The notes below the pieces were generated by a model. The model searched no databases and was not told the DNA's origin. It saw only the letters and a program-made list of their open reading frames with translations. From IMG/VR virus record IMGVR_UViG_3300023084_000142, positions 1 through 22,768 of that record: a stretch of DNA of 22,768 nucleotides, one strand, 5' to 3'. Numbering within the stretch: the first letter of the stretch is position 1; each line of letters starts with the position of its first letter. The position numbers and the translations under genes are program-made. Below, piece by piece: positions 676 through 22,585 of this stretch. Source of the stretch: a virus.

Positions 676-1029
676 TCAATCCCCCGTCTCAACATTCTCA
701 AAGACAATGTTACCATTCTGGTCAAACACCAGCACTCTGAAGTAATGATCAGCATTCTCATATGCTGAGACTGGTGGGAACCACTCAGATGCATTAAGAA
801 CTGCTACTTCTTCGCTACCATATTCGATAGCACAGTCTCTCTCACCACCAATAATACTGATGATGTCATCTGGTACATAACCTTCTAGTTCTGCAAGACA
901 TGCTGCTTTCTGTGCATCATCAAACGTTGCCCACTTCTTATTCTCAAAGTGCAGTAGGCATACATTATTCATGGCACAGTGACTGCCTGCCAACTCATAT
1001 ACTGATAGACTTTCGATTGCGGTGATCAT
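676..1029 (-). CDS. Hypothetical protein, 117 aa, coupled to the chaperone-like gene
   Basis: I do not recognise this protein. It is acidic and soluble-looking, with no signal peptide or membrane segment. It has three cysteines (C18, C24, C44) and a fourth in an RDCAIEYG stretch. The second half (EWFPPVSAYENADHYFRVLV and the Asp/Gly/Asn-rich FDQNGNIVFENVETGD end) looks like a small beta fold. Its start codon overlaps the stop of the upstream 299-aa gene in an ATGA (1026-1029), and a strong GGGGAGG ribosome binding site lies inside the end of that gene. Coupled translation with the chaperone-like protein is therefore likely, suggesting a partner or accessory role in fibre assembly. That role is inference from position only. 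Confidence 0.7.
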   Translation of the reverse strand: MITAIESLSVYELAGSHCAMNNVCLLHFENKKWATFDDAQKAACLAELEGYVPDDIISIIGGERDCAIEYGSEEVAVLNASEWFPPVSAYENADHYFRVLVFDQNGNIVFENVETGD

Positions 1030-1925
1030 CCTACATCCTCCCCGTTGTCAATTCTAGAGATGAGATCATCTAGAGAACGTTTGATACTATCTAGGTTCTG
1101 ATGTTGATTGCTCCATGGTGTACCTTCAATACCAAGTGCAACAGGATTTTCTCTCATAGCACGGATCATTGCATCAGTGTACATTCTATCAGTAATATCT
1201 CTAACCATGAGATACTTCACCATCTTATCCTTGAACTGAGTATAGAAGAAGTGAGCAGGTAGTGTCCACTGATCTTCAGTGTCAAGATAAACTGCATCAG
1301 GATTGTTTGCCTTGTATACATTGACAAATGCATCAGGTGACATGGGGAACTTGATTGTTTTAATGTCCTCAATGTCAGCAAAAATTGCAGGAAGATCTCT
1401 TAGTTTAGTGCGATATGTAGTGTACAATGCTTTCATATCATCAGACAATGGACTGTCTGGTAGCAATGCAAAGTCTGTTTCTTGTAGTAGGAAGTTGCGA
1501 GCAAGGCGAACAGTGAACCATGTCTCAGTTCTAACTTCACCATACATGCGTCCCATTTCTTCTTGGAACTCTTCATTCTGTAGTCGCTCGATGTTCATGA
1601 AAGTATCTTTCAAGAAATCGTAGAACTCTCTAGCAGCATCTACATCTGACTGCTCCATCTCATAGTCTTTCCACTCATACTGACCAGTCTTAAAGTTCTT
1701 GACAAACTTTCTTCTAGTACAGTGATAGGTATTGTTATCATACCAAGTAAATTCAACTAGACGATCCTTTTCAGTATCCCAAAGAGGATACAACTTAGGA
1801 CGTACAGTATCAGTCCAATATGTATCAGGGACAGTCTTCATGATGCCTCTATACACAATAGAGCGATCCATCAAATTCAATTGCAAAATCAAATTTGGTA
1901 CATTACTGTTTGCTACGATACCCAT
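1026..1925 (-). CDS. Tail-fibre assembly chaperone-like protein (Phage_tail_APC-type core)
   Basis: A 299-aa protein. Residues about 141-200 read like the phage tail assembly chaperone (APC) family: an aromatic/Arg lead-in, RNFLLQETDFALLPDSPLSD (143-162), then an acidic helix, YRTKLRDLPA (171-180) and a Pro-containing segment FPMSP. This is the familiar 'RN-LL--TD---LPD-PLS' followed by 'YR--LRDLP' pattern. Such proteins help tail fibres fold or attach and are usually encoded just after fibre genes, exactly the position seen here, directly downstream of three collar-domain proteins. The family core is usually short; this one has about 130 unrecognised N-terminal residues and a 100-residue C-terminal extension predicted helical (HFFYTQFKDKMVKYLMVRDI and a charged tail). 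Either extension could give fibre specificity. No Shine-Dalgarno sequence is visible before the ATG. The gene overlaps the next by ATGA. The core assignment is moderately secure; the substrate is inferred from synteny. Confidence 0.65.
   Translation of the reverse strand: MGIVANSNVPNLILQLNLMDRSIVYRGIMKTVPDTYWTDTVRPKLYPLWDTEKDRLVEFTWYDNNTYHCTRRKFVKNFKTGQYEWKDYEMEQSDVDAAREFYDFLKDTFMNIERLQNEEFQEEMGRMYGEVRTETWFTVRLARNFLLQETDFALLPDSPLSDDMKALYTTYRTKLRDLPAIFADIEDIKTIKFPMSPDAFVNVYKANNPDAVYLDTEDQWTLPAHFFYTQFKDKMVKYLMVRDITDRMYTDAMIRAMRENPVALGIEGTPWSNQHQNLDSIKRSLDDLISRIDNGEDVG
1037..1043 (-). promoter_or_regulatory. Shine-Dalgarno sequence for the 117-aa gene
   Basis: GGGGAGG on the minus strand, seven bases before the ATG at 1029. 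It sits inside the 3' end of the 299-aa gene. It is the best ribosome binding site in the window and fixes the start of the 117-aa protein. Confidence 0.75.
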
Positions 1926-1953
1926 GAGAGGCGAATATACTATGTGCTGAATG

Positions 1954-1961
1954 TATTTAGT
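1954..1961 (-). promoter_or_regulatory. Weak late-promoter-like motif before the chaperone-like gene
   Basis: On the minus strand ACTAAATA matches six of eight bases of the T4 late consensus TATAAATA, with the TAAATA core intact. It overlaps the TAA stop of the 1278-aa gene and lies 28 bases before the next ATG, a geometry similar to the perfect promoter at 22167-22174. With two mismatches in AT-rich DNA it may be chance. Confidence 0.25.
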
Positions 1962-4900
1962 ATGCCTTGATTAGATACTTGACAAGGAAATATGGTTCAA
2001 TCAGTGGCACCTTGATGTCTGGATCAAGTGCAGCAACAGGAATAATTGGACTTGCAGATGATAGTGTCAATGTTAGATCATTTGCAAAGATACCAGATGT
2101 ATATGTAGATCCTGCTTCACCACGAACATCATAAGTTTGAATATCATTTGAGACTGCCATCTTACCCTCAGATGGTACAAATGTCAGTTCTGTTGTCTGC
2201 TCATTCTCAAATGTAACCTCAAGTATACCATAGTTATCTGTGTTATCCGCATTGTCATTAGAACCACTAGCAGCACCTCTATTCTGTCTAATAGAGAAAC
2301 GTGCAGTCTCTACCTTTGCTGCTTCAGGAAGATCAATACTGTAAGTATACCAGTTAGTTGGATTAGTACCAGTGCCTGTACCATCGTAATTAGATGTAAT
2401 TTCACTTGCAGATGGGATGGGAACTAGGGTGCCAATAAATCCAGATGATGGGAAATTCAGACTTTCATCAGTATTATAATAGAGTAGTAGTTCATCTCCA
2501 CCATTCTCGGGTAGATCACCACCATTATTATCGTTGCCTCTTGCTACCTTAACTGTCATTCTTTGGAAGTCACTAGCATCAATAGTGCCAAGTGTGACAA
2601 ATCTATCATTCTGTGTGCCACCAAACTTCAAATAAGTTGTTGGTTCATCACTGCTTTGGAGTGTCAATCCTGTTAGAACACCAGTTGCTTCATCAAAACC
2701 TACGGTAGCATAGTTCTTAACACCAACACCGTGTAAAATACGAACTCGTGGTGCCTGTGTGTATCCAGATCCAGAGTTAGTCAGTGATATACCACTAATT
2801 TTATTACCAGACACAGTAACACTTGCGGCAGCGCCTGATCCACCACCACCTCCTTCAAATACAACTACAGGTGTTTGTGTAGTTGGTAATTTAAATCCAC
2901 CACTAGTACCAGAACCACTACCAGAAGAGAAGAAGTTCATACCATTATCTTGATCACCAGAACCATCGATGAATACATCACCAACAGAAATACTTTCAGT
3001 GCCTCCTTCGTATCCAGTGATAGTTTGCCAAACAATCTTAGCATAACCATCAGAAGCAGTGCTGGATGATACTCCACTACTACTGACACCAGCACCACCT
3101 TCACCTACACTGATTTGAATACTAGACTGACCTTGGAATGCATCAGCAGGGATAGTACCAACATACAGACCGCCTGATCCACCGCCACCACCACCAGAAG
3201 TCCAATATCCACCGTCTTCTGTGACAACTGCTGTAGCATATCCATTACCATTATTAGTGTTAGATTGAGAGGTAACTTCAGAAAAATAATCCATGTGACA
3301 AGAAGAAATGCCACGTCTACCGCCATATCCTTCCTCGTGACCACCAGAACCTTGGGCACCACCACCCGTGCCAGAAGCACCACCTAGACCAGTTCCATCA
3401 AGACCACAGCCTCCACCGCCGCCGCCTCCGCCGCCGCCTGTGCAACCATAACCACCGCCAGTACCACCACCACCAGTGTTCAAAGTTGTACTGCTGCCAC
3501 TTACTTCTTGAACGTCATCGCCAGGATTAACTGCGTTTCTGCCGTTCTGACCACAGGATCCTTCACCAAATCCTCCACCACCGCCACCGCCGCCAGCACC
3601 AGCAATGATAGTGTTACCATTCTGTAGTCTAAGAACAGTAGCAGCACCACCGCCGCCACCATCATTACTTTCATATCCATCACCTGCTCTTCCACCTTTA
3701 CCAGAGTGAGCAGCATTTGCTTGACCATTATATACTCTACCATATTGCCCTGGTTGAACTCTGAATATTACACCTGATGTTGGGTTAGCATATTTTGCTG
3801 TGAAAACTTTACCAGCGCCACCTGATCCAGCAGTACCGCAACCATTGCCACCAAAATTACCACAGAATCTACCACCACCACCTGCTAGTGTCCATGATAA
3901 AGAGACGATGCCATAGTTATCATTAGATGCAGCTAAAGTCCAGTCTTGATTAAGGTTATCATTATTATACGAGAAATCATATTGTTGAGTAAGAATATTG
4001 ACTACAGGACGTGATCTGCCCCCTGTACCATTGTAACCAATTGAGTTTACACCAGCAGAACCTTCTGCATTTTCAGGAACAACATTCTTATCTTCTAGAT
4101 CTTTATTCCAATATCTACCATTACCACCATCTCCACCATTTCCACCAGTACCTGCACCGTTTTGTACAATAACAACATCACCAGATATAGAACCAGAGAT
4201 AGATTGAGTTCCTGCAGAACCACCAGTGCCACCAGTAGTATCACTAGCAGCACCGCCACCAGCTCCACCACCAGCAGTCATAAGCAATACGCTACCACCA
4301 GAAACACTAATAGTTGAACTACCACCACTATTACCTGCAACATCATATGATGCGCCAGAACCACCAGCACCAACTAGTGTAATAGATGCTTGGTCAACAC
4401 CAGATGGTACAGTAGTGTCATAGTCTCCTGGTGATGTAAATTCAACAGTTGATGAAGAATAAACTGGCACACCATCAGTAACAATAGTTCTACCACCAAC
4501 CAAACTGACACTGCTGAATTTTTTCATGGTTGGTGTACCATAGCTGGTGATCTCTACATATGATCCAGCACCAGCACCACCAGATGCATAATAATAATTT
4601 GGTTCTTTAATAGATCCAGAGTTTTGGTCACCACCACTCCAGTTGAAGATGTCATATGTACCAACACTACCATCTAGAATAGGTGCTTTAGATAGAACGT
4701 GAGTGTGGTTGTATGCAATACCACCAGGGGGCAAGAAACTATTAACTTTACCTGTCGATTGCTTGTATGATACTACATATCTGTCACCTGATACTGCCTG
4801 TGGAGATGGTGTATCCTGTGGTGCTTCAGAGTGTAGCAGGAAGTGTGAGTGCTGTGGAGCACCAGCAATTTTTTTCTCTTGTAGTTCTACACTAACTACC

Positions 4901-5793
4901 TGACCACCAATAATAGATGCTTCTACACTATCAAAGACATTACTATATCCTGTCGTGGTAATATTTCCCAGAGCAAATTGATCTTTCTGGGTCTGTTTAT
5001 CCATGTACCAATTACCATCAATGGTATTGATACCTACACCCAGTTCAGAGTTACCAACGTTAGGTGTGTTATTACCATAAACAGGACCATTGCCTACAAT
5101 TCTCTTTGCCTTGAGATCAGGAACTTTAAACGTTCCCATATTTGGATCTGGCCAATAATCATATACATTATTACTATTGATAGATTGGATCTGTCCAACC
5201 TCAGAGTTTATTCTGAGTGCATATGTTGGTGTTGTACCAGCATTGGAAGATGAGAATGTTACATTAGGTGGATTTTCTGGATCATATCCTTTTCCTGGGT
5301 TTGTTATTTCTACACCAGTAATGACGCCATTAACTACAGTTGCAGTAGCAGTTGCCTGCACTGGAGTAACACCCGCAAATACTTGATTGGCACCGCTAGG
5401 TGGAGCATCGATAGTTACAGTTACAGTTGATCCCCATCCAGCACCACCAGTTAAGATATCAATACCATCGCTAGCCGTACCACCATATTCGTTACCAATT
5501 GCTGCATACAAAGCAGGATAGTGATGAATATAATACTCTGCACCATCGCAGTAGATGTAACCTTCATATTGATACTCTGGATTATTCTCTGGTTCTGCGT
5601 CTCCAGAAATTTCTGTATATGCGGTGGTGCCACCTCCCAAAGAAGGTACAATTGCTGGTACAAAAGAGTGATCATAAGATCCCTCAACAGACTTCAATGT
5701 CTGAATGATAGTACCAATTCCCTGACTATCAGGGAACTTGTCAGTATAGTAGACTTCACGTCTATTTCTATATTTTGGATTAATTGCAACCAT
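1957..5793 (-). CDS. Tail-collar protein with giant glycine-rich adhesin region
   Basis: A 1278-aa putative receptor-binding or tail-tip protein. The N-terminus carries a phage tail collar domain in two pieces: GYIYCDGAEYYIHHYPALY (78-96) with GNEYGG, and GTFKVPDLKAKR near residues 216-227. Between them is an inserted beta module ending in a GKGY motif (VITGVEITNPGKGYD). Two His-x-His sites follow (HSH near 314, HTH near 363), as in metal-binding T4-type fibre tips. Residues about 452-990 are extraordinarily glycine-rich, opening with a Gly_rich-like segment (DQASITLVGAGGSGAS) and including ten consecutive glycines at 786-795. Such regions can form polyglycine-II helix sandwiches in phage adhesins. 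A second GSGY module follows (ISGISLTNSGSGYTQAP), then a jelly-roll-like beta region, and the C-terminus ends FLVKYLIKAY like the two upstream collar proteins. Start: ATG five bases after the previous stop, with only a weak AAAGA behind it. Structural role is well supported; receptor binding is inferred. Confidence 0.8.
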   Translation of the reverse strand: MVAINPKYRNRREVYYTDKFPDSQGIGTIIQTLKSVEGSYDHSFVPAIVPSLGGGTTAYTEISGDAEPENNPEYQYEGYIYCDGAEYYIHHYPALYAAIGNEYGGTASDGIDILTGGAGWGSTVTVTIDAPPSGANQVFAGVTPVQATATATVVNGVITGVEITNPGKGYDPENPPNVTFSSSNAGTTPTYALRINSEVGQIQSINSNNVYDYWPDPNMGTFKVPDLKAKRIVGNGPVYGNNTPNVGNSELGVGINTIDGNWYMDKQTQKDQFALGNITTTGYSNVFDSVEASIIGGQVVSVELQEKKIAGAPQHSHFLLHSEAPQDTPSPQAVSGDRYVVSYKQSTGKVNSFLPPGGIAYNHTHVLSKAPILDGSVGTYDIFNWSGGDQNSGSIKEPNYYYASGGAGAGSYVEITSYGTPTMKKFSSVSLVGGRTIVTDGVPVYSSSTVEFTSPGDYDTTVPSGVDQASITLVGAGGSGASYDVAGNSGGSSTISVSGGSVLLMTAGGGAGGGAASDTTGGTGGSAGTQSISGSISGDVVIVQNGAGTGGNGGDGGNGRYWNKDLEDKNVVPENAEGSAGVNSIGYNGTGGRSRPVVNILTQQYDFSYNNDNLNQDWTLAASNDNYGIVSLSWTLAGGGGRFCGNFGGNGCGTAGSGGAGKVFTAKYANPTSGVIFRVQPGQYGRVYNGQANAAHSGKGGRAGDGYESNDGGGGGAATVLRLQNGNTIIAGAGGGGGGGGFGEGSCGQNGRNAVNPGDDVQEVSGSSTTLNTGGGGTGGGYGCTGGGGGGGGGGCGLDGTGLGGASGTGGGAQGSGGHEEGYGGRRGISSCHMDYFSEVTSQSNTNNGNGYATAVVTEDGGYWTSGGGGGGSGGLYVGTIPADAFQGQSSIQISVGEGGAGVSSSGVSSSTASDGYAKIVWQTITGYEGGTESISVGDVFIDGSGDQDNGMNFFSSGSGSGTSGGFKLPTTQTPVVVFEGGGGGSGAAASVTVSGNKISGISLTNSGSGYTQAPRVRILHGVGVKNYATVGFDEATGVLTGLTLQSSDEPTTYLKFGGTQNDRFVTLGTIDASDFQRMTVKVARGNDNNGGDLPENGGDELLLYYNTDESLNFPSSGFIGTLVPIPSASEITSNYDGTGTGTNPTNWYTYSIDLPEAAKVETARFSIRQNRGAASGSNDNADNTDNYGILEVTFENEQTTELTFVPSEGKMAVSNDIQTYDVRGEAGSTYTSGIFANDLTLTLSSASPIIPVAALDPDIKVPLIEPYFLVKYLIKAY
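3409..3438 (-). repeat. Glycine-codon microsatellite (ten consecutive GGN codons)
   Basis: On the plus strand this is a run of GCC/CCT/CCA triplets, giving ten consecutive Gly codons (residues 786-795) bracketed by Cys on both sides (C-T-Gly10-C). Similar shorter GGN runs recur across roughly 2830-4440, making this the most GC-biased stretch in an otherwise AT-rich window. Near-perfect triplet repeats of this kind can gain or lose units by slippage without breaking the frame. Confidence 0.8.
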
Positions 5794-5798
5794 CGTCT

Positions 5799-7184
5799 TT
5801 AATACTTAATTAGATATTCCATGATGATGTAAGGACTGGTAACCTGATCAAGAGAAGCAACTTGATCGGTTTGCAGTGTCAATGTCGTCTGTAGATTATC
5901 GGGTGACAATAGGAAACCATTTGTCTTAATTTTATATGTATGTGTCCCTTGGGTCAGCAGAATTTTGTGAGAGTGAATGGTAGGATCACCATCATTCTGC
6001 ACTAGTTCATCAATCTCAGTAAATACGTTATTAACCTGAGGATATGATTGCGCCGTTTTAGATTGCGTGTTACTGTTTAGAGGAACAACGTCAGATAGAC
6101 TGGTGCCATTAGAATCAACAGGAACACCAGTTGCACCAGTAACATAGGTAGCAGGAACGTTTCCTGTATCATTATAACTACCAGAATCTAGTTGGTTACA
6201 ACTTCCAAGTCCAAGACCAAAGCTGACAAAGTTTGGTGGTGCAGCAAAATCAATATCTTCTAAACTAAAGTTAGTTCCAGAATTCAATAGGCACTGATAT
6301 CTCAGAGAGTTTAGACCAGCAGATCCTGCCAAGTCATAGCAATAGTTAGAGTAAACAACCTCAAAACCTGTGTTAGTTTCAACTGGTTGAGATCTTGATG
6401 TCGCACCAGATGCAATCGCCCAACATGGTGGTTGGTTTGTTCCAGCACCCTCACTACTAGATCCATTAGGATACTGAGTGTTATCCATCCATCCCTGAAT
6501 GGGAATGGTTGTAGCATTAAAGTATGATCCAATACCCTGAGATCTTGCTTCTGTATCCTCATTGGTAGTCTTAATTCTCAATCTATTTGTAGTTGAGAAG
6601 TGCATGTGAGAATGTAGTGCAAGACTATCAACTGCCTCACTATCAGTGAAACCACTATTGTTAGTACCTTTTGACCACGATGGTTTACCCTTTAGTGCAA
6701 TCTCCTGTGATGGTACGTTAAAATTTCCAGTATAACTTAGATTAATGACAGTTGTGTTACCAGTAGTTGTACCCGCAGTTGGTGTGGAGATAATACCCAT
6801 ACCAGATCTACGTCGTTCAACCTCATTCTGATCTTCAGTTACAATGTTAATATATGAACCAGCAGATGCACCTGTGGTTGGTTTAGGATATTTGGATCCT
6901 AAATCAGGGACAATGAACTCATCATCTCCTACGTCATCAATAACATCATTATTAATGTCACGCCTAATAAACTTAGATGCAGTCCCAGTGCCAAGTATTT
7001 CAGCAAGTTGAGGGTAATCATCCGCTTTGTAGATTTTTCCATCACACTTCAAATAACCAGCAGGTAACGCATTGATATTTTCTTCTGCGTTAGGATCAGT
7101 GCTGGTTAGTTCAACTGGCCAGGTAATAATACTGCCTGTGCCAGACCCATATTTTGATCTTTCTCTTGAGTAATGTGCAGGCAT
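5799..7184 (-). CDS. Tail-collar-domain fibre protein, 461 aa
   Basis: The N-terminus (about residues 14-100) is a phage tail collar domain: GSIITWPVEL, then LPAGYLKCDGKIYKADDYPQ (40-59), LAEILGTG and the closing EFIVPDLGSKYP (89-100). Collar domains sit in short tail fibres and tail-tip proteins such as T4 gp12. His-rich metal-site-like motifs follow: LHSHMHF near residue 192 and IHSHKI near 405. The rest is Asn/Thr/Ser/Gly-rich with no strong hydrophobic segment, typical of trimeric beta fibre proteins. The last residues (SPYIIMEYLIKY) match the ends of the neighbouring collar proteins. Its start overlaps the stop of the 530-aa gene by one base (TAATG, 7182-7186), so coupled translation is likely; only a weak AAAG lies upstream. 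It is probably a paralogue of its neighbours with a diverged middle. The virion position (baseplate, short fibre or tip) cannot be told from sequence. Confidence 0.8.
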   Translation of the reverse strand: MPAHYSRERSKYGSGTGSIITWPVELTSTDPNAEENINALPAGYLKCDGKIYKADDYPQLAEILGTGTASKFIRRDINNDVIDDVGDDEFIVPDLGSKYPKPTTGASAGSYINIVTEDQNEVERRRSGMGIISTPTAGTTTGNTTVINLSYTGNFNVPSQEIALKGKPSWSKGTNNSGFTDSEAVDSLALHSHMHFSTTNRLRIKTTNEDTEARSQGIGSYFNATTIPIQGWMDNTQYPNGSSSEGAGTNQPPCWAIASGATSRSQPVETNTGFEVVYSNYCYDLAGSAGLNSLRYQCLLNSGTNFSLEDIDFAAPPNFVSFGLGLGSCNQLDSGSYNDTGNVPATYVTGATGVPVDSNGTSLSDVVPLNSNTQSKTAQSYPQVNNVFTEIDELVQNDGDPTIHSHKILLTQGTHTYKIKTNGFLLSPDNLQTTLTLQTDQVASLDQVTSPYIIMEYLIKY

Positions 7185-8776
7185 TAGAACGCTTTAATAA
7201 GGAACGTAACAACTAGCGCAGGCATTGAAACCTCAGCAATAATATTTAGGGCGTCATCTATATTTTCAGGCGATACGGTGCCTAAACTGATGTCATTCAA
7301 AGCAAATACTGTTGGTGCTGCCAAAGATCCTTGACCTTGGATCATCTCAAAACTACCGTGGTTGTGACCCAAGAAAGAAGAACTATTTGGATCTAACTGA
7401 GAGGTAATATTGTTTGTAGTTGTTGGATATGTTCCGTGCTTAAAGCTAAGAGTTTGGTTTGTTAATTGTGCCGAATTGAGTGTTGGTTGTGATAGATCTA
7501 GAGTATAAACATAATCCGTACTTGACGATCCTTCTCTACTGATGGCAACAATCTGTGTACCAGGAGCAAGTACCGTGTCTAGATATACCCACATAAATGG
7601 TACAACTTCATCCAATTCGTAGGCATTACCAATATTGGCACCAGCAGGCAAATCAATAGAACTGGAAGTAGGTTCGATAGTTACACCAGTAACAGTAAAT
7701 GCTGCAGATGTGTCAGGATCATAGTTTGAAGTTGGACCGAAGAAATTTCTTCTGTTAGCAACTTCTAGTGGTTTAGGGAACATACCAGTCCATGCATCTT
7801 GTGCGTGTGTCTTGACTGGATCTGTAACATCATAAGTGCTAGTATATGCACTACCATTAAACTGATATGTCAAATCATTTGATTTTACTAGACCAGATGG
7901 GTGTGCTTGTGCAGGTGGCCATGATGCTGCAGGAACTTGACCCCAGTAGCTAGATCCTTCAAAGTTATAAAATCTGTCTGTTTGTGGTAGTGTAAATTCA
8001 TGCTGCTCATCACCATAGAATGTAATAGAATTTCTACCTTGCTGCCATGATGGTGCTGTAGTGGCATTAGTTAACTGACATTCTGAATAACCAAAGTCAG
8101 TAACACAGTTACCAGTAATACCACCACCAGTAGAAATACCAGATGGTTCAAATGGCATTGGACCAGCAAACTGTGCGGTTGCTCTACTATATGTTCCTGG
8201 GTGTGAGTGACCAGGAGTGTGGTTAATACCTAGTTTTCTGTTGATAGTGTAAACTGTTGTACTGAAGTCTGGTGGTGCAATACTAATGTTAGTAAACTTA
8301 CCACTCATCACCAATGATGGATCAACAGTAAAGTCGATGTCACAGTTGGCGTTGATTGTGATGGGAATAGGTGAATTCAAACTGATGCTACCAAAACCAG
8401 CAACTAGTGCATCTCCAGTATATGTCTCAGACACCAATACATTATATGCATCTGTCTGACCATACTGATATTCTGATTGTAATAGATACTCAGGTTCCAA
8501 ATCAATTGGCATCTGAAGTGTCATATTTGGTACGCGAAATTTTCCCTCATACTCAGGAAATTGTCCCGCAAATGCAGCATCAGCACCATAAGTGTCACCT
8601 ATGACTGATGCCAACAGCGGATACCTTGAGGCATCCTGTAGTCTGCCATCACAGACAATCCATCCTTGGGGGATGTTAGACAGGGCGAAACCTGTGTTAC
8701 CATCCCCAGACCAAGGCATGATAGTGCCAATTTTGGCACTTTTCATGAACTTGACTATACCGTATCTTACTGCCAT
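7184..8776 (-). CDS. Tail-collar-domain fibre protein, 530 aa
   Basis: The clearest tail collar domain of the three: GTIMPWSGDGNTGFALSNIP (17-36), then QGWIVCDGRLQDASRYPLL (37-55), IGDTYGAD and the closing FRVPNMTLQMP (80-90). This fits a short-tail-fibre or tail-tip structural protein. Two His motifs are present: NHTPGHSHPGTY near residue 190 and LGHNHGSFE near 471. HxH motifs of this type bind metal ions in T4 gp12 and gp37, holding trimeric tips together. The middle is Ser/Thr/Pro/Asn-rich, beta-type and unrecognised. The C-terminus MPALVVTFLIKAF is shared in form with the next two genes. The start is supported by AGAGGA directly before the ATG. The stop of the giant gene lies seven bases upstream and forms part of that ribosome binding site, so translation may be coupled. 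Collar-domain call is strong; the exact fibre it belongs to is unknown. Confidence 0.85.
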   Translation of the reverse strand: MAVRYGIVKFMKSAKIGTIMPWSGDGNTGFALSNIPQGWIVCDGRLQDASRYPLLASVIGDTYGADAAFAGQFPEYEGKFRVPNMTLQMPIDLEPEYLLQSEYQYGQTDAYNVLVSETYTGDALVAGFGSISLNSPIPITINANCDIDFTVDPSLVMSGKFTNISIAPPDFSTTVYTINRKLGINHTPGHSHPGTYSRATAQFAGPMPFEPSGISTGGGITGNCVTDFGYSECQLTNATTAPSWQQGRNSITFYGDEQHEFTLPQTDRFYNFEGSSYWGQVPAASWPPAQAHPSGLVKSNDLTYQFNGSAYTSTYDVTDPVKTHAQDAWTGMFPKPLEVANRRNFFGPTSNYDPDTSAAFTVTGVTIEPTSSSIDLPAGANIGNAYELDEVVPFMWVYLDTVLAPGTQIVAISREGSSSTDYVYTLDLSQPTLNSAQLTNQTLSFKHGTYPTTTNNITSQLDPNSSSFLGHNHGSFEMIQGQGSLAAPTVFALNDISLGTVSPENIDDALNIIAEVSMPALVVTFLIKAF

Positions 8777-8778: not shown

Positions 8779-8784
8779 TCCTCT
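8779..8784 (-). promoter_or_regulatory. Shine-Dalgarno sequence for the 530-aa collar gene
   Basis: AGAGGA on the minus strand, two bases before the ATG at 8776. Its first base is the last base of the giant gene's TAA stop codon. The spacing is shorter than usual, but it is the only good match, and termination of the giant gene would place ribosomes right on it. Confidence 0.6.
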
Positions 8785-11700
8785 TAGAGTTCGACTAACC
8801 ACCAACCGCGTAGGTCTGTTGGAATTTCGGATGCATCTGGGTCACCCTCTGCATCACTCACACCAACATAGACTAGACCGAAGGATGCATTTCGTGTTTG
8901 AACGATCATTTCACCACTGCTCCAAGCAAGTGCAGATGGACCCGCAGATCCTGCTTGTGCCTTTGTACCAGTGGTATCACCTTGGATTGCAACCGCAGTT
9001 GTACCGATAGGTAGAGCACGGATGATCAAGCTAGCGGCATAAGATAGGTTGCTACTAATATCGATAAATCTAATCATATCACCAGTCTTAGCATCAGATG
9101 GTAGATAAACAACCATGTTACCGCTAGAAGATGGGTTAACGAGATAGTTACCGTTTGGAGTTAGTGGGTTAGAAACAACTTGACCGAAACCAGTGGTGGA
9201 TGCTGCCAGATATGTCCAGCGTCTACCACCATTAGCGTTGAAGTATCTTCTAATACCAAAGGCATCAATAGATCCATCTTGATACATGATGAAGTCATTA
9301 GGACCAGCGCCAGTGTTACCAGCAGATCCTAGGTTATCTATATGTAGAACCTCAGAGGCACTACTTGAACTCTCAAGGATTTGACCCTTGATGTATAGAC
9401 TTTCACCTAGTCTTACAGATCCGTCGCTGTTATCAACGTCGAACATCAAGTCATTGCTGCAGGTTCCGTTCTCCTGACAGGTTTGCTGATATACTCTCAA
9501 CTTACCATAGATGTCTGCTCTACCGTTGAGGTACATTCCTGCTCTATTAGTAACTGGGTCAAGAATTGCACCATCACCAGGGTGACCGTCATCGTTAGCG
9601 ATACCAAGAATAAGTGTCTTGCTATCCGTGCCATACATTCTGAAGTTACCAGCGTTGATGTTAAGATCATCATTGATCGTTAACTTACCACCACCAAAGT
9701 ATCTTCTGACACCTTTTTCTGGTTGAGATGAATCGTTTGTATCTCTGATGCTCTTAGGCATCTTGACACCGAAGTTAGGATCAACTGTGCCATCAATACT
9801 ATCTGGGAAGAAGAACTCACTACCAATTCTGATGAATTGCTCATAGTCAAGTTTCTGAGAAACTAGATTACCATTAGCAAGTTTGAGGACAATTCTGTCG
9901 GGATTAGTGTTTGGCGTAGGTGCCTGAGTTCTACCAGTTGCAGGTAGTGCTTCTAGTAGAGTTGTGCTTCTGCTGTCCTTTTGGATCTTAACAACTACAG
10001 CACCAACCGTGAAGGATTGTGCAGTTGTTGTTTCTTGAGCACGACCACCGCTAGGATAATCAATAGTAGTATTAAATGGTATACGTGGTTCATTAGAACT
10101 GCTATCAACGTATGGATCATCGGTAATACGAATGATTTCTGCCTGTGTTGCACCATTAATGATTGCAACTAGGTCACCCTTTTCAAATCCAGTGATGCTG
10201 TTGACAACCATGAACTGTGTTTGACCAGCAGATAGAGTAGAAGCAAGTAGTGTCTCAGGACCAGTTGCTTGTGCAGTCTGTGGATCTCTAGTGTAAACGT
10301 AAACTGGTTCGGTTACAGAGTGAGCAACAGCAGTAGAACTGTAATATCCTTGCAGTGCCCAGACCCAACCCCATTCGTTACCAATAATTGTGTTACCTTG
10401 GCAGGTATCAACTTCAAACGTGGTGAAGTCTCTATTGGTTAGGGTCAGTTTAGAGTTGTCAGAAGTATCCTCAAAGATATCATAGATGTTATTAACGATA
10501 GGTGTAGAACCGCAACCACCAGACAGTTTCAGCGAACCGTAGATGTCGAGAACACTGTTCTGTACAGTTTCATCACCAATAGTGATGTCACCAGTAACAC
10601 TATCAACAACAAATACGTCCTTCTCGTTTGCACTATCACAACCGCTGGTAACGATCAGTTTCTTGGAAACTTGATCCAACTGGGTCTGAACCTTGACAAT
10701 CTCACCTTGATTGAAGTCGCCGTCATCGTTTGTATCTTCACGATCAACAATAACGTAATCATTAGTGGTTAGAGAACCACCAAACTGCGAGAGGTAGAAG
10801 TTGTCAACAGGACCAGTTGCATCAACTACTTGCGTTGTCCAAGTAGCATCGAAGGAGATATTTGCCTTCCAGAGGTTGGTTGCATCTAGGTGTGTGGATA
10901 GATAATCCTGAGCAGGAGATAGTTGTTGTAGCTTGTACTTGGTGAAAGAACCAAGTGGGTGACGCTTAACCTTAATGTAATAAGGAGCAGCACCTGCACC
11001 CGCTAGACCATCTTCAGTAATTCTGACGAGTTCAGGATAACGCTCAGTTGCACCAGATCCAGTAGGAACAGTATCGATTAGGATGTAATCGCCTGCTTGG
11101 AAGTATGGAGTTGGAGCATACTTCATTGGGAGGTAGAACTCATCACCAGTGATTGCTGGTAGATCAGAACCTTCAGCACCTGCTCCAGTCTTACTTTCTT
11201 GGAATGTTGCATCACCCCAAGTAGCAGCACCTGCGGTGTCAATTCTGTTGAAACCAGCAGCGAGTTCTGCAGTTGTTGGAGCGTTACCATCAGCAACAGT
11301 GATAACAGAAACGTTGATGATGTCAATGTTGCTGTTAAATGTATCCTGACCTAGAATACCGCTAGCGTGAGCGAAGTCGTCTGTACCTAGTTGTGCTCTT
11401 AGACCTTCAAAGGAGTAAGAAGCATTACCACCACAGAGTTTGATGTCAGCATTGAAACGTGAATTAGCATCAACAATAAAGTTGTTTCTAACAGTTGTGC
11501 TACCACCCTGACCACCAATGGTGATTAGAGATGCGTTAGTAGCAAAGTTTAGTGTCTGTGTTTGAGTGGTGAAGAAGTTAACAACACCTGCTTCAGATCT
11601 CAGTGTGACGGTCTGAGTAGGATCAGTTGCGTCACCACCAATAGTCTTATTAGCACCGATTAGCATGTCACCAGCAACACTGAATTGCTTGGTTCCAACT

Positions 11701-14700
11701 AGAGTGTAAGAGTTAGAGGAGTTGTTGTTATATGCACCACCGATTTGGATCTTCGAGATCTTATTTTCACTATCATCAATGTCGCCAATGAAGATGTTAG
11801 AATGATCAGATGCATTACCCAGTCTGAAGTATGTATCTCCAGTTCTGTCATTGCCAATTCTGATGTCTTCTACATTACCAGCAAGGTTTAGTCTGCCCTC
11901 AAATGTAGTATCAGTTACGAGGTTGAATGTGCCAGAGGTCTGAGATGTTCTGATCTCAGCAATTACACCGTCATCACCATTGACTTCGATGTCATGCTCA
12001 AAGCGAGCATCATCAGTAAATCTAGATGTACCATCAACAACCAGTGCTCTATCAAGTTGAGAGTTGTCAACGTTAATACCAACACGACCACCGTTTGTAG
12101 TAGCAACTCTTAGAACTGCCTCATCATTAGGAGCAGCACTGTCACCACCAACTAGTAGAGCATTATCTACCGCAGTCTTATCACGATCAGCGAAGTTGGT
12201 GTGATCTAGGAAGTCAGCAGTTGTTCTACCACTGATGAATGCAGTACCAACAACATCTAGGTTTGCACGAGGATCTGTTTCAATGCTTGTCCATGCATTC
12301 TCAGCAGCAGAATGTGGAGCACGAGCAACAGTGTTGATGCCCAGTTTATAGTCACCGATAGTAGCAGTCTCGGTTCTAAGTGTTTCAGCGCCAATGACGC
12401 CTACTTCCTTCCAAGTAGAGTTAGAGAACTCAATCTTGGGTTCTACACCAGCAGCAGCGTTAGCAATAACGTCTGCCCAAGGCTTAACCTCAGTGCTTAC
12501 AGCATCAATCAGTTGAACGTGTACGAAATCATTAGATCCAGCAAATGCATCTACACCACCTGGGTTGACAACGTACCACGTACCATTAACTACACTGTTT
12601 GGATAGTAATCACTAACTCTAATTTGAGATGCTAGTGTAATACCAAGACCATCATTTGTAGTGTTGTTAAACGTGATCTTAAAGATGTTAGATCCGTTGA
12701 ATACGATATCATCTAGAGTTGCATCTGCAATCGTAGTATAACCATCTGCAAGTACCCAAGCAAAAGAACCAGTTAGATTGACTTCTTTACCCTTGATTAG
12801 AACATCACCAGGGGAAGGAACAACACCACCGTAAGTGATGTACTGATCTGCAAGAATTCTTGTACCGCCAGCAGAATATAGTGGAGACTGGTTAGGTGTT
12901 AGGTTAGAACCAAATGCACCAATAGCATGTGTGAGGAACTTATATCCTCTTGCTCTTGGGTATCTGATAGGAGTAATCTCGAAGACCGCTGCCTTAACTC
13001 TATTCTTACCAATCTTAATGTCACCAGCATTTGGTGGATTAAACTCAGTATTGTCTAGTCTCTCATCCTGTTCGATAACACCCAGATCGTTCTCTGTGCT
13101 CTTAACATAGGAGCGAATGATTAGAGGTTGATCAACCTGAGTGAAGTCACCGTCTTGTACAGCGATGACAACAGGAGATTCAAAGTTATTGACTAGTGTA
13201 CCATCTCCACCAACAACTGTGATGTTCTGGTTGAACGTTACAGGTGTATCGAAGGTAGTAACGAGACCGCCAATTACATCATCCTCGTCTCCGTCATCAT
13301 TGAGAGTTGCTCTGTCGATGAATGTCTCTTCACCAGTAATAGCGTTAATTCTTCTGTTACCAATGTAGAGGTCACCCTGAGAGTTAATACCCGTATAGAA
13401 GACGATACCACCATCTTGTTTCTTACTTTGAGCATAGAAGTCCTCATCGGGTGTTAGGACAATCTCCTGACGCGCTGGGAGACCTGTGGAGTAGTTACCA
13501 GGACCGAAACCAAGATATTCAAATGTGTGGTTACCAGCACGAGCGATAGATGGTCTACGGAGTTCAACATAGTAACGCTGATCCGAGAGAACTGTGCTAT
13601 CACCAGCAATAGGAATGAGACGATCTTCAGAACCAGAGACTGCGTTACCATCTTTTGCTCTAATCTGATTATCACCAGTGTAGGTATTGAGGATAAACGC
13701 TGGGTTGCTGAGTAGATCTTCGACAAGTTCTCTGGTTACAGAGTTCTTATAGTCGTTAACGGTAACAAGACCGTGGATGTAGTTATCAGCAGCAGAGTAT
13801 GCCTGTGGTGGGTCAATTAGGTTAGCATAGTAATCTTTCTCTGCCTGAGTTGTACCAGAGTTCTTGAACCAGAGAGGATCGTTTCTATAGTTGAGAGGAT
13901 AGAGTTTACTGACTGGTTGAGAGAACTTAAACTTCTTGAAGTTATTGATAACACCAGCACCCGTTGGGAATGGCGAAATGTTACCACGGAGAGCAGTAAC
14001 ATAATAGATACCATCTTGCTGACCAGCAATTCTGCGCTGTAGTGTCTCATATCCAAAGATATAGAAGGTGTCTTCAATGACGCCTGCATCTTCAACAGAA
14101 GCAACGTAGTATTCGATACCTGCACTATCCTGAATACGATCACCAGGGGTGATAGTATAAACGTTAGCGCCGTTTTGCTTGTAATAATACTCAGGATAAT
14201 TTTTTCTGATTAGTGTTTTCAGAGGTAGCGATTTGCCCATATCCTGGTCTTCCAGCATATCAGCAAATACATTGCCTTGCCTGAACGTAGTGGTTGTATA
14301 CTCACTGTACTCAAGAATACCACCACGGATGTTCTTGATGATTAGATAGTGATCACCACCAACGTTGAAGTAACCATGGATGTTGCACTGACCCGAAGAA
14401 TTACCACTAAATGTTGCAGCATTAGTATCTCCTGCACCATTTTGTGTCTTATTCGTGATGAAAGATCCACCTTGAGGAGCAGTGATCTTAACTGTAGTTA
14501 GGATCTCATTGCTTAGACCAGAGAAATTGATAGTATCAATAGTGTGGTCATAAACAGTCAGTTCTAGATACTTGATTGATGCATCTAGAGCATCCTCAAC
14601 ATAACGACCAGATTGAATTGTTGCCTGAACACCAGAGTTAAAGCGTGCATACGCTCTTCTGTCTGCAGCAAGATATGGATCATACTGAGCATCTAGACTG

Positions 14701-17700
14701 AGGTTTGCAGTCTGTGCATCTTCTTTGGTAACACCAATAAATTCACCTGCTTGAACTGGGTTCTCGAAACGAGCACCATATACAGATCCTGTTACAGGCT
14801 TGAGTAGGATCTTCTGAGGAACAAGTTTACGGGTGTCGTCAGTTCTTGTCTTAAGAACGAAACCATTGATAGGATCTCTTGCGTTCTCAAGATACTTAGG
14901 AATGACAAGACGTAGTTTGTACGTTCTCTCATCCGCCTCACGAGTGTCATCGAGACGCTCATACCACATGTCAGTAGATCTCTGACGATCAGCATAATCA
15001 CTCTCGTTAATTCTCCAGAAGATGTCATTCTTTCTTACGCTATCAGTATTACTGGAAGAACCGTTATCCTTACACTGAATGTACCACTTACCAGTCGATA
15101 CAGTAGTGTTAGTGAACGTTGGATCAAAGCGCATTGGGCTTCTACGCTTGTTAGCGTAGATCTGGAACTCGTTTTGAGTTACAACAAAGTTGATCTCACC
15201 TACACCGTTGATAGCATCAGCATGTGTCTTGTGTAGAGTGATCTTCTTAGGAGATGCATAGCGAGCATAGAACTCTGCATTTGGATTAACTCTACCATAA
15301 TTTGCATCATTACTATCAGTAATAGTAACAGCAGGATCAGTTGCAGAATCTCCACCAGTTTGTGGTAGTTGACCACCTTCAGATTCTCTGATGAATACCA
15401 GCTGAGGAGTTACACCAGCATCAGGAACGTCAAAGATGTGTGCAACATCTGTTTGTAGTTCTGTTCCGTTTGCAGTTACAGCAGTATAGTTGTGTAGATC
15501 ATACTTGTCATCTAGAACAAACTGATAGAGATCAATCTCAACATCCTTGTCAATTGCATCAGTCTCAGATGCATAGATGTAAATACCTGCTGCTGCGTTC
15601 TCTTTGGAGGTCGCAAGCATCAACTTAGTTTGATCGCTACCATCGAAGAACGATGTGCCATTATACTCTTCACCACCTGCTTCTGTGCTTCTACCAGGAG
15701 CAATTACATAGTAAGTTCTGTTTGTCTCGAAACCATTGGGTAGTCTGACGAGACGCTTATCAACATCAACATACTTACCAGTATCAACATCAAAGCGAGG
15801 ACGTGGAACAAGTCTAACTGGTGTGCCAGTTTCAAAGTTGTGTGGGTTGGAAGGACCAGTACCCGTGGTGTCAATTGTGAATACAGTTGCTCTCGCAGCA
15901 AGTGCAGCAGTGTCAACTGTTTGCTCTTGTCTAGTAACAGAACCAAGACCACTATCAATGATGGTAGTAATGTTACCAATTAGAACTTCAATAGCATCAG
16001 CAGTACCAGAGCACTCTCTGTAGCTGGTAGAAGTTAGAGTATCTACTAGAACTTCAGGTGTTACATCATCACCAGATCCACCAACAGTAACGGTAGTTGG
16101 TAGTGTATCTGCCCAAATACCTTGATTGTACTCAAAGTATAGATCAACGTTAATTGTAGCACCAGGAGGATCTCCTTGTGGTACGGGAACAGATACTGGA
16201 GTTCCTTCATCTAGCGCAGATCCAAAAGTTCCAAGTTCAATAGTAGTTGGACCTAGGATCTTCTTAACGTAGGTATCAGCAGGAATTCTGGATACAACTT
16301 GAGTTAGTGCATATGGAGTAGCATCTTCATCTCTTCTGAGTTGAACTTCTTCGGTCTGTAGTAGACCATAGCGATACGCAGGTTCATTAACATTGGTGTT
16401 GTCATATTCTTTGACGCTCATACCAATGACAATACCACGAGTATCACCAACATCAACAATATTGGATCCCGTTGTTACAGTACAACCACTTGCGAGAACA
16501 TCAAAGTTACGCATTGCAGCAGTTGCCAGCTGTCCAACGTAATCCCAGGCGTCTGTTGTTTCTTGTCTCTCACCATCGATGTATGTAAGGCTGTTACCAA
16601 CGTAGTATGCTTCACCTGCTTGGATGCTGTTGATATTACCGCCAAGTCTGAGGTCATTAACAACAGCGTCAACGATGTAGGAAACGTCACGGAAACACTT
16701 AGATGCTTCGTTATTAATTGTGAAATCACCTTTATTAACAGGAGGTAGACCAGCAAGTGTGCCACCGCTGATTGCATCAGTAAGGATATCAAATAGGTTC
16801 TCAATAGTAGAACGAACGTTAGCACAATCCCACTGACCATTGCTTACTGGTGGGAGATCATTCAGATTACCAGCAAGAAGTGCATCACAAAGGATGCCAG
16901 TTAGAGTATCAATCGTCTGGAGAACATCAGAGCAGTTACCTACAGTGTAGGTTGTTGGTTGCGTTGGTGCAGTTCTAGTAACACCAGAGAGATTACCAAC
17001 ACCAGAATCAGTACCGATTGCTTGAATAACAATGTCAAGCAAAGTATCGGTAGCAGCAACAGCAGAACCACAAGTAGGTAGTAGTTCATCAATGTCCCAA
17101 TCATCTACGATTGTTAGATCTTTCTTCTGAGTTAGAGTATTTCCAGCAGATACGCTTACAGTCTCATTTCTGATAACTTGAATTGCAATATTCTTGACTT
17201 CAGTGAATACCTTAGCAGCTTCATCACGCTCAGCATCAATAAATGTCTCTACTACTTGACCATTGAATGTATTAGTGACATATACATTTGCAGCATCATA
17301 AGTCTTGGAGTTACCACCAAACTTGACATCCCACATTACCTCTTCTAGAACGTCATAAACGTCATCTAGACAATCTTGCTTGGTATTATTTTGTTGAGGT
17401 TGGTAAGAAGGATATGCAGCAAGCATACGCTCATATGCCTCAGCAGCAATGAACTCCTTGTTATCAAGAACAAGGTTGTATGCATCAGCGTGAATGTCAG
17501 AAACAAATGCAGGATCTTCAGTTTGATCTAGAGTAATGGTTAGATCACGATCATAGTATTGGTTATTTGCTGCGCGGTTCATTAGATCAGCAGCACGCTT
17601 GAATGCAGTGATCGAAGGACCAACTTCGTTATCAACACCATTACTGATTAGAGAATTGCTGTTGAAGTATTCTTTAGTTGCAGCAATAGTGTACTCGTTA

Positions 17701-20700
17701 CCACCAAACCAGATATCTTGTGCGATAGCATCAACAACGTGACCGATATCTCTGCGGCACTTAGTCTCACCTGTGAGGAAAGAACCAGCATTATCTGCAT
17801 CATTCCAAACACCACCAATAACATTGCCATTGTTAATTGCACTAACAGCAATATTACCAAGAGTATCAATTGCTGCCTGAACATCAGAACAAGCAGCAGA
17901 AGATTGTCTATCAATAGGACCGTCAGCAGGATTAATACCATACTCACTGTCACCTTCAGTAACAGTTAGATCCTTATAGTATAGAGCATTATATACTGCT
18001 TTCTTCATCTCTGCAATAGCAGTGTTGAATGCAGTAACACTCTGTGTTACTTCTCCTACAAGACCATTGCTAATTGGAGTTGTTCCAGCAGCATCAAAAT
18101 ACTGTCTGGTAAATGTCTTGGTGTGCTTGTTACCACCAGTGAACATGTCAACAGAGATGGCATCGATGAAGTAACCAATATCTCTACGGCACTTGGTTTC
18201 ACCAGGACCAGCAGAACCCTTATTAATCTCAGTTGGCATTGAAGATAGATTGCCATCAAGGAATACTGTATCAACAATACCACCAAGAGTATCGATTGCT
18301 GCTTGAACATCAGAGCAGAGAGCGGTGTTGAACTGGTTATCTGTGTTAGAACCAGCAGTTCCATATGGATCACCAGGAGATGGATCAGCAGTAACGCTTA
18401 GATCTTTTTCATAGAGTTGGTTTGCAACTGCCTGCTTCATCATGTCAGCAGCTTTAGCAAATGCAGTCCTAGAAGGACCTTCTTCGCCTACAAGACCATC
18501 AGAAATCTGTGTGGTTGCATTCTCAAAGTATTCTGCACAGAACTTCCATGTATACTCGTTACCATCAATGAACAGGTCAAGTGCTAGAGCATCTACAAAG
18601 TAACCAATGTCTCTGCGGCACTTAGTTTCACCAGGACCAGCAATGTAGGAAGTTTCAGCAGGTAGACCAGATAGATTACCAGCGTTAATTGGACCAGTGA
18701 TAATAGCAACTAGAGTATCGATTGCAGACTGGACATCATCACATGCTGCAGCATTTGTTCTAGAGACATTTCCACCGCCACCACCATATTGTGCGGGACC
18801 TTCACTAACTGTAGGATCAGAAATGCTGAGTTGGTTAGCAACAGCAGCACCCATAAGATCTTTTGCTTGGTTGAATGCTTCAATCGATGCAGTCTCTTCA
18901 CCTTGCAGACCACCAGAGATCCAGTTCTGTCCAGTAGCATCAAAGTATTCAGAGATGAACTTACGGGAATACTTGTTGCCACCAACAAATAGGTCGAGAG
19001 ATACAGCATCAACTAGATAACCGATATCACGCTTACACTTATCACCAAAAGTGTTGCCACCATTGCCATCATAGTTTGGATAGATAGCAAGCATATTTGC
19101 ATATGCTGTGTTGACAATCTCAGTCTTGTTCTGCTGGATCAAACGATAACCATCTGCGTATCTAGAACGCTCATCGGTTGCTGGATCACCAGGAATATAG
19201 AAATCAGGATGACCGATAGCAATCTGTGCTAGACCAGTGTCAACAATCTGATCTCTGTTCTGTTGGATAAGACGGTATGCATCAGCATATCTGGAAGTTT
19301 CATCCGTTTGCTGATCACCAGGAATGTAGAAGCCTGGGTGATTAAGTGCGATAGCAGCAAGTGCCTTGTCTCCAATCTCCTTGCTGTTGCGACGGATTAG
19401 ACGGAATGCATCAGCATATCTTGATTGATCGTTAGACTGAGTATCGCCAGGAATATAGAAGTCAGGATGATAAACAGCAACCTCAGCAAGTGCTGCATCA
19501 AGGATAAAGTCTCTGTTAGCAACAATACGATTACGAGCATCCTTATAGCGACCAGCTGGATCTGCGAGACCAGCGGTATCATAAGTTACACCATTATCAG
19601 TTAGACTTGCTTCTTCTGCTGCAGAACCAGTGTAACCCTTGCCAGCAATGAAGTCAGGATACTTATTAGTATTGCCGTTAAAGAGGATACTATTAGGATC
19701 GGGATCGTAGATGTCTGCCTTAACAGTTAGGAGGTTAGCAATTGCTTTCTTACAAAGATCTCTTGCTCTGTTGAATGCAAAGATTGATTGCTCTTCTTCA
19801 CCTACAAGACCGTTATTGATTGGAGCACCAGCACCATCAAAGTAGAACTTCGTAGCATCGATGATGTTAGCGTTACCACCGTCTTTAAGGTCTTCTGCGA
19901 TAGCGTCAACGATGAAACCAATGTCACGCTTACACTTACCATCAGCAACACCTTGGATGTTACTAATACCAAATGTTTCAACCATCTGGTCGAATGCTGT
20001 GTTGACAATCTCCTGGCGGTTAGCAAGGATTAGATTGCGAGCATCGAAGTATCTGTTACCTGCAGGATTTAGACCAGGGTTGACATAAGAAATGTTCTGA
20101 AGTCTAGGATATTTCTGGAGGATATAACCGAAGACTTCCTCTTGGATCATGCGACGGTTGCTTTCGATTAGATTAGCAGCGTCAGCATAGACACTGTTAA
20201 TTACACCGCCAGTTGGGTTGAGAATATCACCCTTAGCAAGATACTTAACGAAACCAGTTGGTTCTAGTGCTGCTTCAAAGAATTCATCCGTGCCAGGTGC
20301 TGGATCTAGTTTAACGTATAGTTTTTCGTTAGACTTAGCACCAATTCTGAAACCATCAATAGTAGCAGCAGGGCGATCAGTTGGTTGAACAATATCGTCA
20401 CTACCTAGGTATAGTTTGGTGTAGTTACCACTCTGCTGTAGAGTACCTTGGATATCAATGGTATAGTAAGCAACCTTCTTAGTTTGTGCCGCAGTGTCCT
20501 TAACCTGCTTAGGTGGAATAATGTGAGTAAGATATCCACCCTTATCTTGGTTGAAGGCAAATCCTTTGAAACCAATAGCATGAAGTGATGTATTACCGAA
20601 GTTGGAGTTAGAGTTGGTGATCGACATGTCACCACCACTTTCCATCAGGAAGTGATCAGCGAAACCAACAGCGAAGATCGAAACGTTCTGGATGAATGCA

Positions 20701-22166: not shown

Positions 22167-22174
22167 TATTTATA
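22167..22174 (-). promoter_or_regulatory. T4-type late promoter TATAAATA
   Basis: A perfect match to the T4 late promoter -10 consensus on the minus strand, 36 bases before the ATG of the giant gene. Late promoters of T4-like phages are read by host RNA polymerase carrying the phage late sigma (gp55) with its coactivator. Transcription would start shortly after the motif, leaving a leader of about 30 nt. No second perfect copy was found in the window, so this promoter may drive the whole fibre gene cluster. Confidence 0.8.
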
Positions 22175-22234: not shown

Positions 22235-22585
22235 CTAAGGAATAACGATGAGATCGGGGAGTTCAACATATCCATGCTGCAACAGTCTATGACAATTTGC
22301 ACATATAGGAGCGCATTTGTCTATTTCTTCCTTCAGTGTTTTGTAACTAGCAATCTGTAATAGTTTAGATACACTATGCTTTTTTGGTGATGGATCGATG
22401 TGCAATAAATCCATTACCTCAGGAGGATATTCTTTATTGCAGATAATACATGGATGCTTCTTTGCATCATCAACTATCTGCTTTCTCCTCTTAGCACTAA
22501 CTTGATTTGTTTTAGAAGTTTTAGAATTCTTTCTAGCCCACTCACGCTGATACTTACGATTTTCTTCTTTATCTTTATAAGGCAT
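22235..22585 (-). CDS. HNH homing-type endonuclease
   Basis: A 116-aa free-standing HNH nuclease. A basic N-terminus (MPYKDKEENRKYQREWARKN, residues 1-20) likely contacts DNA. The core has a zinc-ribbon cysteine pair C46-I-I-C49, then PPEVMDLLHIDPSPKKHSVS (54-73) with catalytic-type H62, then the second pair C95-A-N-C98 followed by H99, and H104. This layout matches the common phage 'PC-x-x-C, HxDP, CANCHR' HNH family. The first His of the usual D-F-H-H motif is Leu61, but the core His62 is kept, so activity is plausible. Such genes spread between phages by cutting intergenic or conserved sites. It lies between tRNA-Asn and the late promoter, a typical intergenic landing place. A modest AGG is seen three bases before the ATG. 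The family call is strong; its target is unknown. Confidence 0.88.
   Translation of the reverse strand: MPYKDKEENRKYQREWARKNSKTSKTNQVSAKRRKQIVDDAKKHPCIICNKEYPPEVMDLLHIDPSPKKHSVSKLLQIASYKTLKEEIDKCAPICANCHRLLQHGYVELPDLIVIP

Follow-up and report, generated by a model that had tools for sequence, protein, structure and literature searches.

The short tail fibre protein of bacteriophage T4, gp12, forms a trimer in which an octahedrally coordinated metal ion lies on the threefold axis and is bound by the His-x-His (HxH) motifs of the three chains (PMC3004832). The genes for T4 gp10, gp11 and gp12 are consecutive, and their trimeric products share a fold to which large insertions have been added (PMC3004832). 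In T4 gp37, alanine in place of the iron-binding histidine H929 or H931 abolishes plaques (PMC6957217), and HxH motifs in the tail proteins of marine phages, cyanophages included, have already been noted in the iron-binding literature (PMC11705849). Cyanomyoviruses reportedly have no recognisable g10, g11 or g12 (PMC2984593). T4-like cyanophages rank among the ocean's most abundant viruses, and we found no solved structure of their attachment apparatus. Here we describe three consecutive genes in IMG/VR record IMGVR_UViG_3300023084_000142, a stretch of 22,768 bases (the window) that is a fragment of a cyanomyovirus of the Kyanoviridae, with Synechococcus phage S-WAM2 as its nearest relative. 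The three genes very probably encode paralogous tail-collar adhesins of the gp12/gp37 type (PF07484), co-expressed with a giant fibre and a chaperone from one late operon. The finding is of an ordinary kind overall; it illustrates how the attachment apparatus of abundant marine viruses is put together.

The first gene of the trio (7184..8776; all features given here lie on the minus strand) encodes a gp12-like short tail fibre protein of 530 residues, the second (5799..7184) a tail collar protein of 461 residues and the third (1957..5793) a glycine-rich collar protein of 1278 residues. All three exceeded the PF07484 cut-off of 24 bits, scoring 54.8, 28.5 and 34.9 bits, respectively. Among PHROG families, the gp12-like protein matched phrog_4591 (short tail fiber; E 2e-101, residues 5-530), the collar protein matched phrog_31602 (E 5e-241, residues 1-461) and phrog_4714 (tail collar; E 4e-39), and the third protein matched phrog_30655 (E 0, best stretch residues 401-1278) and phrog_4924 (short tail fiber). 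The labels of these families, short tail fibre, collar or virion structural, place the trio among virion proteins of the tail, as the original prediction had assumed. The third protein is the orthologue of the terminal gene named 'short tail fiber' (stf) in other Kyanoviridae, and in BLAST it matched the stf products of Syn1, S-PM2 and S-RIM32 at both ends.

A collar motif stands near the start of each protein: WIVCDG at residue 39 of the gp12-like protein (8645..8662), YLKCDG at residue 44 of the collar protein (7038..7055) and YIYCDG at residue 79 of the third protein (5542..5559). Two HxH sites follow in each chain, namely HSH190 (8201..8209) and HNH471 (7358..7366) in the gp12-like protein, HSHMH191-195, which holds two overlapping motifs (6600..6614), and HSH404 (5967..5975) in the collar protein, and HSH315 (4843..4851) and HTH363 (4699..4707) in the third. 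The chains end in the segments PALVVTFLIKAF (7187..7222; FLIKAF), SPYIIMEYLIKY (5802..5837; YLIKY) and PYFLVKYLIKAY (1960..1995; YLIKAY). The original prediction had given these motifs for each gene, and all were found in their places, the ends exactly. When residues were shuffled, the observed number of HxH motifs was matched in 0.7%, 0.01% and 0.4% of trials for the gp12-like, collar and third proteins, respectively. Pairwise BLASTP of the trio aligned the collars, gave a weak alignment of the C-terminal segments and did not align the middles; they are indeed unrelated, as had been suspected by eye. Profile–profile comparison of the three families gave E values of 1.3e-10, 4.9e-9 and 3.2e-15, with the match restricted to the collar in each case, which bears out the proposal of paralogues with diversified middles, the middles being insertions.

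Thirteen annotated Kyanoviridae genomes and 165 loci of metagenomic viruses supplied the orthologues, and near-duplicates were removed. Profiles assigned 263 distinct relatives (99 gp12-like, 102 collar and 62 third-gene proteins), and ten third-gene proteins that the profile had missed were added. At least two HxH motifs together with the C-terminal pattern, defined as [hydrophobic][hydrophobic][RK]x0-2, were kept in 272 of these 273 proteins, against a background of 1 in 368 for the pattern in other open reading frames of at least 200 residues from the same loci. Typical ends were IIRAY or IIKAY in the gp12-like family, YLIKI or YIIKF in the collar family and KYLIKAY in the third. HxH columns were invariant in the alignments of 73 gp12-like sequences (both sites) and 76 collar sequences (the second site among them), and the first site of the third family was invariant in 12. 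The Asp of the collar motif was not strict, as WIVCKG, WILCGG and WEQCNG occurred among the relatives. The single exception to the shared signature was a third gene (L152:14475-17427) split into two reading frames of 620 and about 365 residues, without the end and the HxH; this is probably a frameshift or an assembly error.

The same kind of end was found in proteins outside these viruses. T4 gp12 ends in NISLNYIIKVKE (NYIIKVKE) and has a sole HxH, HKH at 445-447; T4 gp37 and lambda Stf both end in NIAFNYIVRLA and have eight HxH each by sequence. Mu S and P2 H were considered as further carriers of the trio's end, and this was rejected: Mu S had no match to the collar domain and a different end, and P2 H, for which no domain scan was made, also ends differently. 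The shared pattern is almost wholly hydrophobic, as expected for a buried strand.

Structures predicted with AlphaFold2 pointed in the same direction. The model of the gp12-like protein, made from 73 sequences, had a mean predicted local distance difference test score (pLDDT) of 58, with 88-90 in the collar block and 75 in the last block. In the structural comparison of this model the three top-ranking matches were all T4 gp12 entries. It matched T4 gp12 1ocy with Z 8.9 over 112 residues, model residues 4-530 corresponding to T4 331-526, and 5lye with Z 7.9 over 66 residues (1.9 Å, 32% identity); the gp37 tip (2xgf) was matched with Z 7.5 over 78 residues. The last strand of the model aligned with the last strand of T4 gp12 within the collar domain (model 530 = T4 526). 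These matches came from VIA-align; Foldseek alone gave none below E 0.001 for this model. By sequence, the gp12-family profile found T4 gp12 1ocy among solved structures with E 1e-5, and the direct match had E 1e-10. We propose that HSH190 of the gp12-like protein is equivalent to His445/His447 of T4 gp12. The model of the collar protein (pLDDT 61) was poor and its Z values are supportive only: its top match was the tail fibre of cyanophage A-1(L) (Z 4.9, model residues 19-459), and that to 1ocy (Z 2.9, model residues 19-458) again spanned both ends. In the A-1(L) tail paper we found no passage on the collar or metal sites of the fibre. The collar-protein profile had no match among PDB structures and none to T4 gp12, and the third-protein profile reached no phage structure among the solved ones, only low-complexity armadillo-repeat matches, which were not used.

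Because both ends superpose on T4 gp12 and the end is common to gp12, gp37 and Stf, the conserved start and end are, on the models and the alignments, the two predicted halves of one collar domain, the end being its last strand. That the C-terminal strand closes the collar is indicated by the structural matches of the gp12-like protein and, weakly, of the collar protein, and by the sequence pattern of all three. Each chain would open with the first half of the collar domain ([WY]xxCDG), extend outward into segments that bind metal and face the receptor, and return to complete the same domain with its last strand ([YF][IL]IK...). By analogy with gp12 we infer trimeric, metal-stapled adhesins: each protein would be a knitted trimer whose three chains all contribute their HxH motifs to bind Fe or Zn on the threefold axis, with two stacked metal sites per trimer. 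A small barrel, a loop of about 170 residues and a glycine-rich region of about 575 residues would then be the surfaces meeting Synechococcus, and the three proteins would plausibly be co-assembled on the particle rather than being alternatives. Such a view marks out the core and the host-facing insertions in three proteins at once.

Several points weigh against this interpretation. The structural matches of the collar protein are weak (Z 4.9 with the A-1(L) fibre and 2.9 with 1ocy), and the models are monomeric, cover the gp12-like and collar proteins and have low mean confidence (pLDDT 58 and 61). Because of this low confidence, the structural claim rests on the match to T4 gp12 at both ends together with the sequence comparison. 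T4 gp12 has one HxH and the window proteins two, and metal binding and trimerisation are predictions. The conserved last strand may also have a second role as a contact surface.

The known systems resemble the trio in different respects. With T4 gp12 (1OCY, 5LYE) it shares the collar domain, an HxH that starts an inserted head and the NYIIK-type strand that closes the collar; T4 gp12, however, is a single gene product with one HxH, the receptor-binding head PF14928 and the middle domain PF09089, whereas the window has three paralogues with two HxH sites each, and a Pfam scan found neither of the two domains in any of them. The T4 gp37 tip (2XGF) and lambda Stf have the collar start, several HxH and the NYIVRLA end, but their long needle has seven or eight HxH, in contrast to two HxH and large inserted domains here. 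In the T4 gp10–gp11–gp12 series, likewise three consecutive genes whose trimers come from one fold with big insertions (PMC3004832; in the window, trimers are predicted), kinship is visible in structures only and gp10 has no HxH, whereas in the window collar and HxH are seen in the sequence. Salmonella phage S16 gp38, whose type of adhesin has a lattice of polyglycine II helices, and the fibre tip of cyanophage Pam3 are tail adhesins with a glycine-rich region too, but the window has only a sub-threshold Gly_rich_2 match and no PDB sequence match. Among marine HxH tail proteins, discussed with the iron of T4 gp37, Alteromonas phage R22Y and the Ferrojan horse hypothesis, the window differs in that three collar paralogues each carry HxH at two fixed positions.

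The original prediction had explained the alike C-termini as docking tags that bind the giant fibre protein or the 299-residue chaperone while the middles diversify. The three ends are indeed similar and the genes of both supposed partners are always neighbours, but the same end is carried by T4 gp12, gp37 and lambda Stf outside this cassette, and an almost entirely hydrophobic pattern that superposes on the terminal strand of T4 gp12 is what a strand closing the collar would give, so that docking is improbable as the reason for the likeness and the idea is corrected here. It had further been considered that the YLIK ends might be buried strands of unrelated folds; the strand is predicted to be buried, but the folds are related. 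Chance or convergence between unrelated folds, for which the lack of detectable similarity between the middles might speak, is hardly credible in view of the invariant HxH columns in the 73- and 76-sequence alignments, the profile–profile matches of the collars and the rarity of the end among background reading frames (1/368).

The suggestion that the virion carries alternative tips, one of the three being displayed per particle or condition, found no support, although no dedicated search for a switching element was made. Diversified middles would suit it, with nothing that favours it directly, but the trio lies in one predicted operon behind one late promoter, all complete cassettes seen hold the three genes together, and RefSeq and PHROG name all three as virion proteins; we consider it very improbable. 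A co-assembled trio might, on the other hand, be a functional replacement of the T4 gp10–gp11–gp12 pin module, whose members have a flower fold in common and bind one another at the rim of the baseplate, one or two of the proteins being connectors and not tips. In favour of this, the T4 genes are also consecutive and their products share one fold decorated by insertions (PMC3004832), recognisable g10, g11 and g12 are reportedly missing from cyanomyoviruses (PMC2984593), and the gene order and the one-base overlap or few-base spacing are conserved. However, all three window proteins carry PF07484 and HxH like gp12, T4 gp10 has no HxH, a profile similarity to T4 gp10 was looked for and not found, and the sequence match to T4 is limited to the gp12-like protein. 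We regard such a replacement as possible but rather unlikely, and favour three gp12/gp37-type adhesins.

Comparison within the families separated a common core from its insertions. The minimal form was represented by collar proteins of about 294 residues from other clades, consisting of the collar, the first HxH, about 50 residues, the second HxH, about 55 residues and the end. In the gp12-like and collar proteins of the window, 210-280 residues separate the two HxH. In the gp12-like protein this space includes an inserted domain (residues 353-450, 7427..7720) that forms a block of high pLDDT and matched barrel domains of tailspikes and tail tips (best Z 7.7); we tentatively describe its predicted fold as a small beta-barrel. 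Matches of this insert to the barrels of Uba1 and F1-ATPase reflect a common arrangement and were not taken as kinship. In the third protein the HxH sites are 48 residues apart and the big insert follows the second site rather than separating the pair: about 900 residues lie between this site and the end, including the glycine-rich stretch of about 575 residues (residues 371-945, 2959..4683), which gave a sub-threshold match to Pfam Gly_rich_2 (E 0.0095) and no PDB sequence match. The least conserved regions across the families were the middles. Between the window and S-WAM2, the glycine-rich insert was the fastest-changing long region (72% identity; ratio of nonsynonymous to synonymous substitution rates, dN/dS, 0.30), and the part from the second HxH to the end was the most constrained in the gp12-like and collar proteins (92% and 98%, dN/dS 0.06 and 0.01). 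The last 63 residues of the third protein, a short segment, were not especially constrained (81%, dN/dS 0.30).

We observed two clade-specific cassette architectures, a new detail, among 73 loci with both a collar and a third gene and ten more added by eye, and there were no mixed loci. In architecture A (47 loci) the collar protein has 456-500 residues and the third gene is adjacent, its product having the collar motif near residue 75 and 17-21% glycine; a minimal variant of A (3 loci) has proteins of 298-299 and 370 residues. In architecture B (33 loci) the collar protein has about 294 residues, one to three intervening structural genes encode proteins with an unrelated end of the NWxxVRQI type, and the third protein has an N-terminal extension of 550-650 residues and 9-12% glycine. 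Identity of the gp12-like proteins was at least 37% within A and about 20-27% to B; the architectures follow clades and so reflect few events, not 83 independent ones. The extra structural proteins of type B (L007:3845-10118, L008:3514-8645 and similar) are mutual paralogues with their own NWxxVRQI end, mostly 37-72% identical, largely over the C-terminal 250-350 residues, and several start with a glycine-rich module. We asked whether these proteins (vsp) share ancestry with the N-terminal extension of stf, and BLAST found no similarity. A wider joint claim would be that an independent triplication of a gp12/gp37-type adhesin fills the place of gp10, gp11 and gp12, with two stacked Fe or Zn ions per trimer, and makes one attachment unit with the giant fibre, solved in A by a long collar protein and a glycine-rich insert inside the third protein without extra genes, and in B by a short collar protein, a third protein extended at its N-terminus and one to three separate proteins that are glycine-rich or variable. 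Taken in all its parts together, this is possible but rather unlikely.

The surroundings of the trio are conserved as well. S-WAM2 matched the window with 80% nucleotide identity, covering 90% of the first 8.8 kb, and in both a tRNA-Asn region and an HNH gene come first, followed in order by the genes for the giant fibre, the short tail fibre, a collar-type and a third structural protein, and the tail assembly chaperone. The S-WAM2 orthologues gp223, gp222 and gp221 stand in the same order, are 85%, 88% and 77% identical to the gp12-like, collar and third proteins, and have the same architecture with no notable difference. The order of the trio (short tail fiber gp12, tail collar, third collar-type structural gene) was kept in every relative examined, and the collar gene was directly preceded by the gp12-like gene in 136 of 136 testable loci. 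The first gene of the cassette encodes a giant tail fibre protein of 4448 residues (8784..22130; phrog_4527 and phrog_529, tail fiber), syntenic in S-WAM2, S-RSM4, S-PM2 and Syn1. The last gene with an assigned function encodes the tail (fibre) assembly chaperone of 299 residues (1026..1925; PF16778 Phage_tail_APC, 37.7 bits; phrog_4697, E 2.5e-31).

Since there is a single conserved late promoter and the genes are tightly spaced, we infer that the giant fibre, the three collar proteins and the chaperone form one late operon. The promoter core ATAAATA (GTATAAATAAA; 22167..22173) lies 36 nucleotides upstream of the giant gene and occurs once in the window, about four occurrences being expected by chance. 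The sequence TATAAATAAA also precedes the giant-gene orthologues of S-WAM2 and S-PM2d, and the late promoter of S-PM2 has been described as NATAAATA (PMC2984593). Scans for sigma-70 promoters gave no more matches than chance. Genes of the cassette abut, overlap by 1-4 bases (the gp12-like and collar genes share one base) or leave a few bases between them; only the chaperone gene is preceded by a larger gap, of 31 bases.

Published work on related phages bears on the same genes. During 500 days of coexistence of Synechococcus and S-PM2d in a chemostat, mutations arose in S-PM2d218, 219, 220 and 224 (PMC9910659); their locus tags identify them as the giant, gp12-like, collar and third genes, so the S-PM2 genes under experimental selection, orthologues of the giant, gp12, collar and stf genes, would belong to one operon. 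The virion proteome of the cyanomyovirus S-CREM2 includes a short tail fibre (PMC10665884).

Some minor features of the region were also recorded. The third protein has a GSGY-type module of about 100 residues within its collar domain (residues 111-214, 5152..5463), which appears as a gap against the family consensus and weakly matched phrog_701 at residues 110-181. Such modules (e.g. EITNPGKGYDPENPPNVTF and SLTNSGSGYTQAPRVRI) occur in the window at 5152-5463 and 2700-2850 and in another third protein (L006, residues 120-190); they give weak matches to phrog_701 and phrog_460 and are placed differently in the third proteins of the window and S-RSM4, as if mobile. An HNH endonuclease gene (22235-22585; phrog_3106, E 4e-34) lies between tRNA-Asn and the operon. 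A comparison of the surroundings of the chaperone gene (window 1026-1957; L005; L006-L010) showed that most other Kyanoviridae have genes for 2-oxoglutarate-Fe(II) oxygenases flanking it, which are absent there in the window and in S-WAM2. The giant fibre protein contains six KC[KRF]RD-[IV] repeats, at residues 732, 1031, 1170, 1313, 1457 and 1811, mostly of the form KC[KR]RDIGYxVDAIxxDxxxGGN, and matches Pfam Phycobilisome (PF00502) with 48.6 bits (E 1.1e-12), which is above the cut-off; the orthologues of S-WAM2 and S-PM2 share this. We take the KC[KR]RD motif to resemble the chromophore-cysteine region of phycobiliproteins; no solved relative was found by sequence. S-WAM2 has a CpeT-like gene some 1.3 kb upstream.

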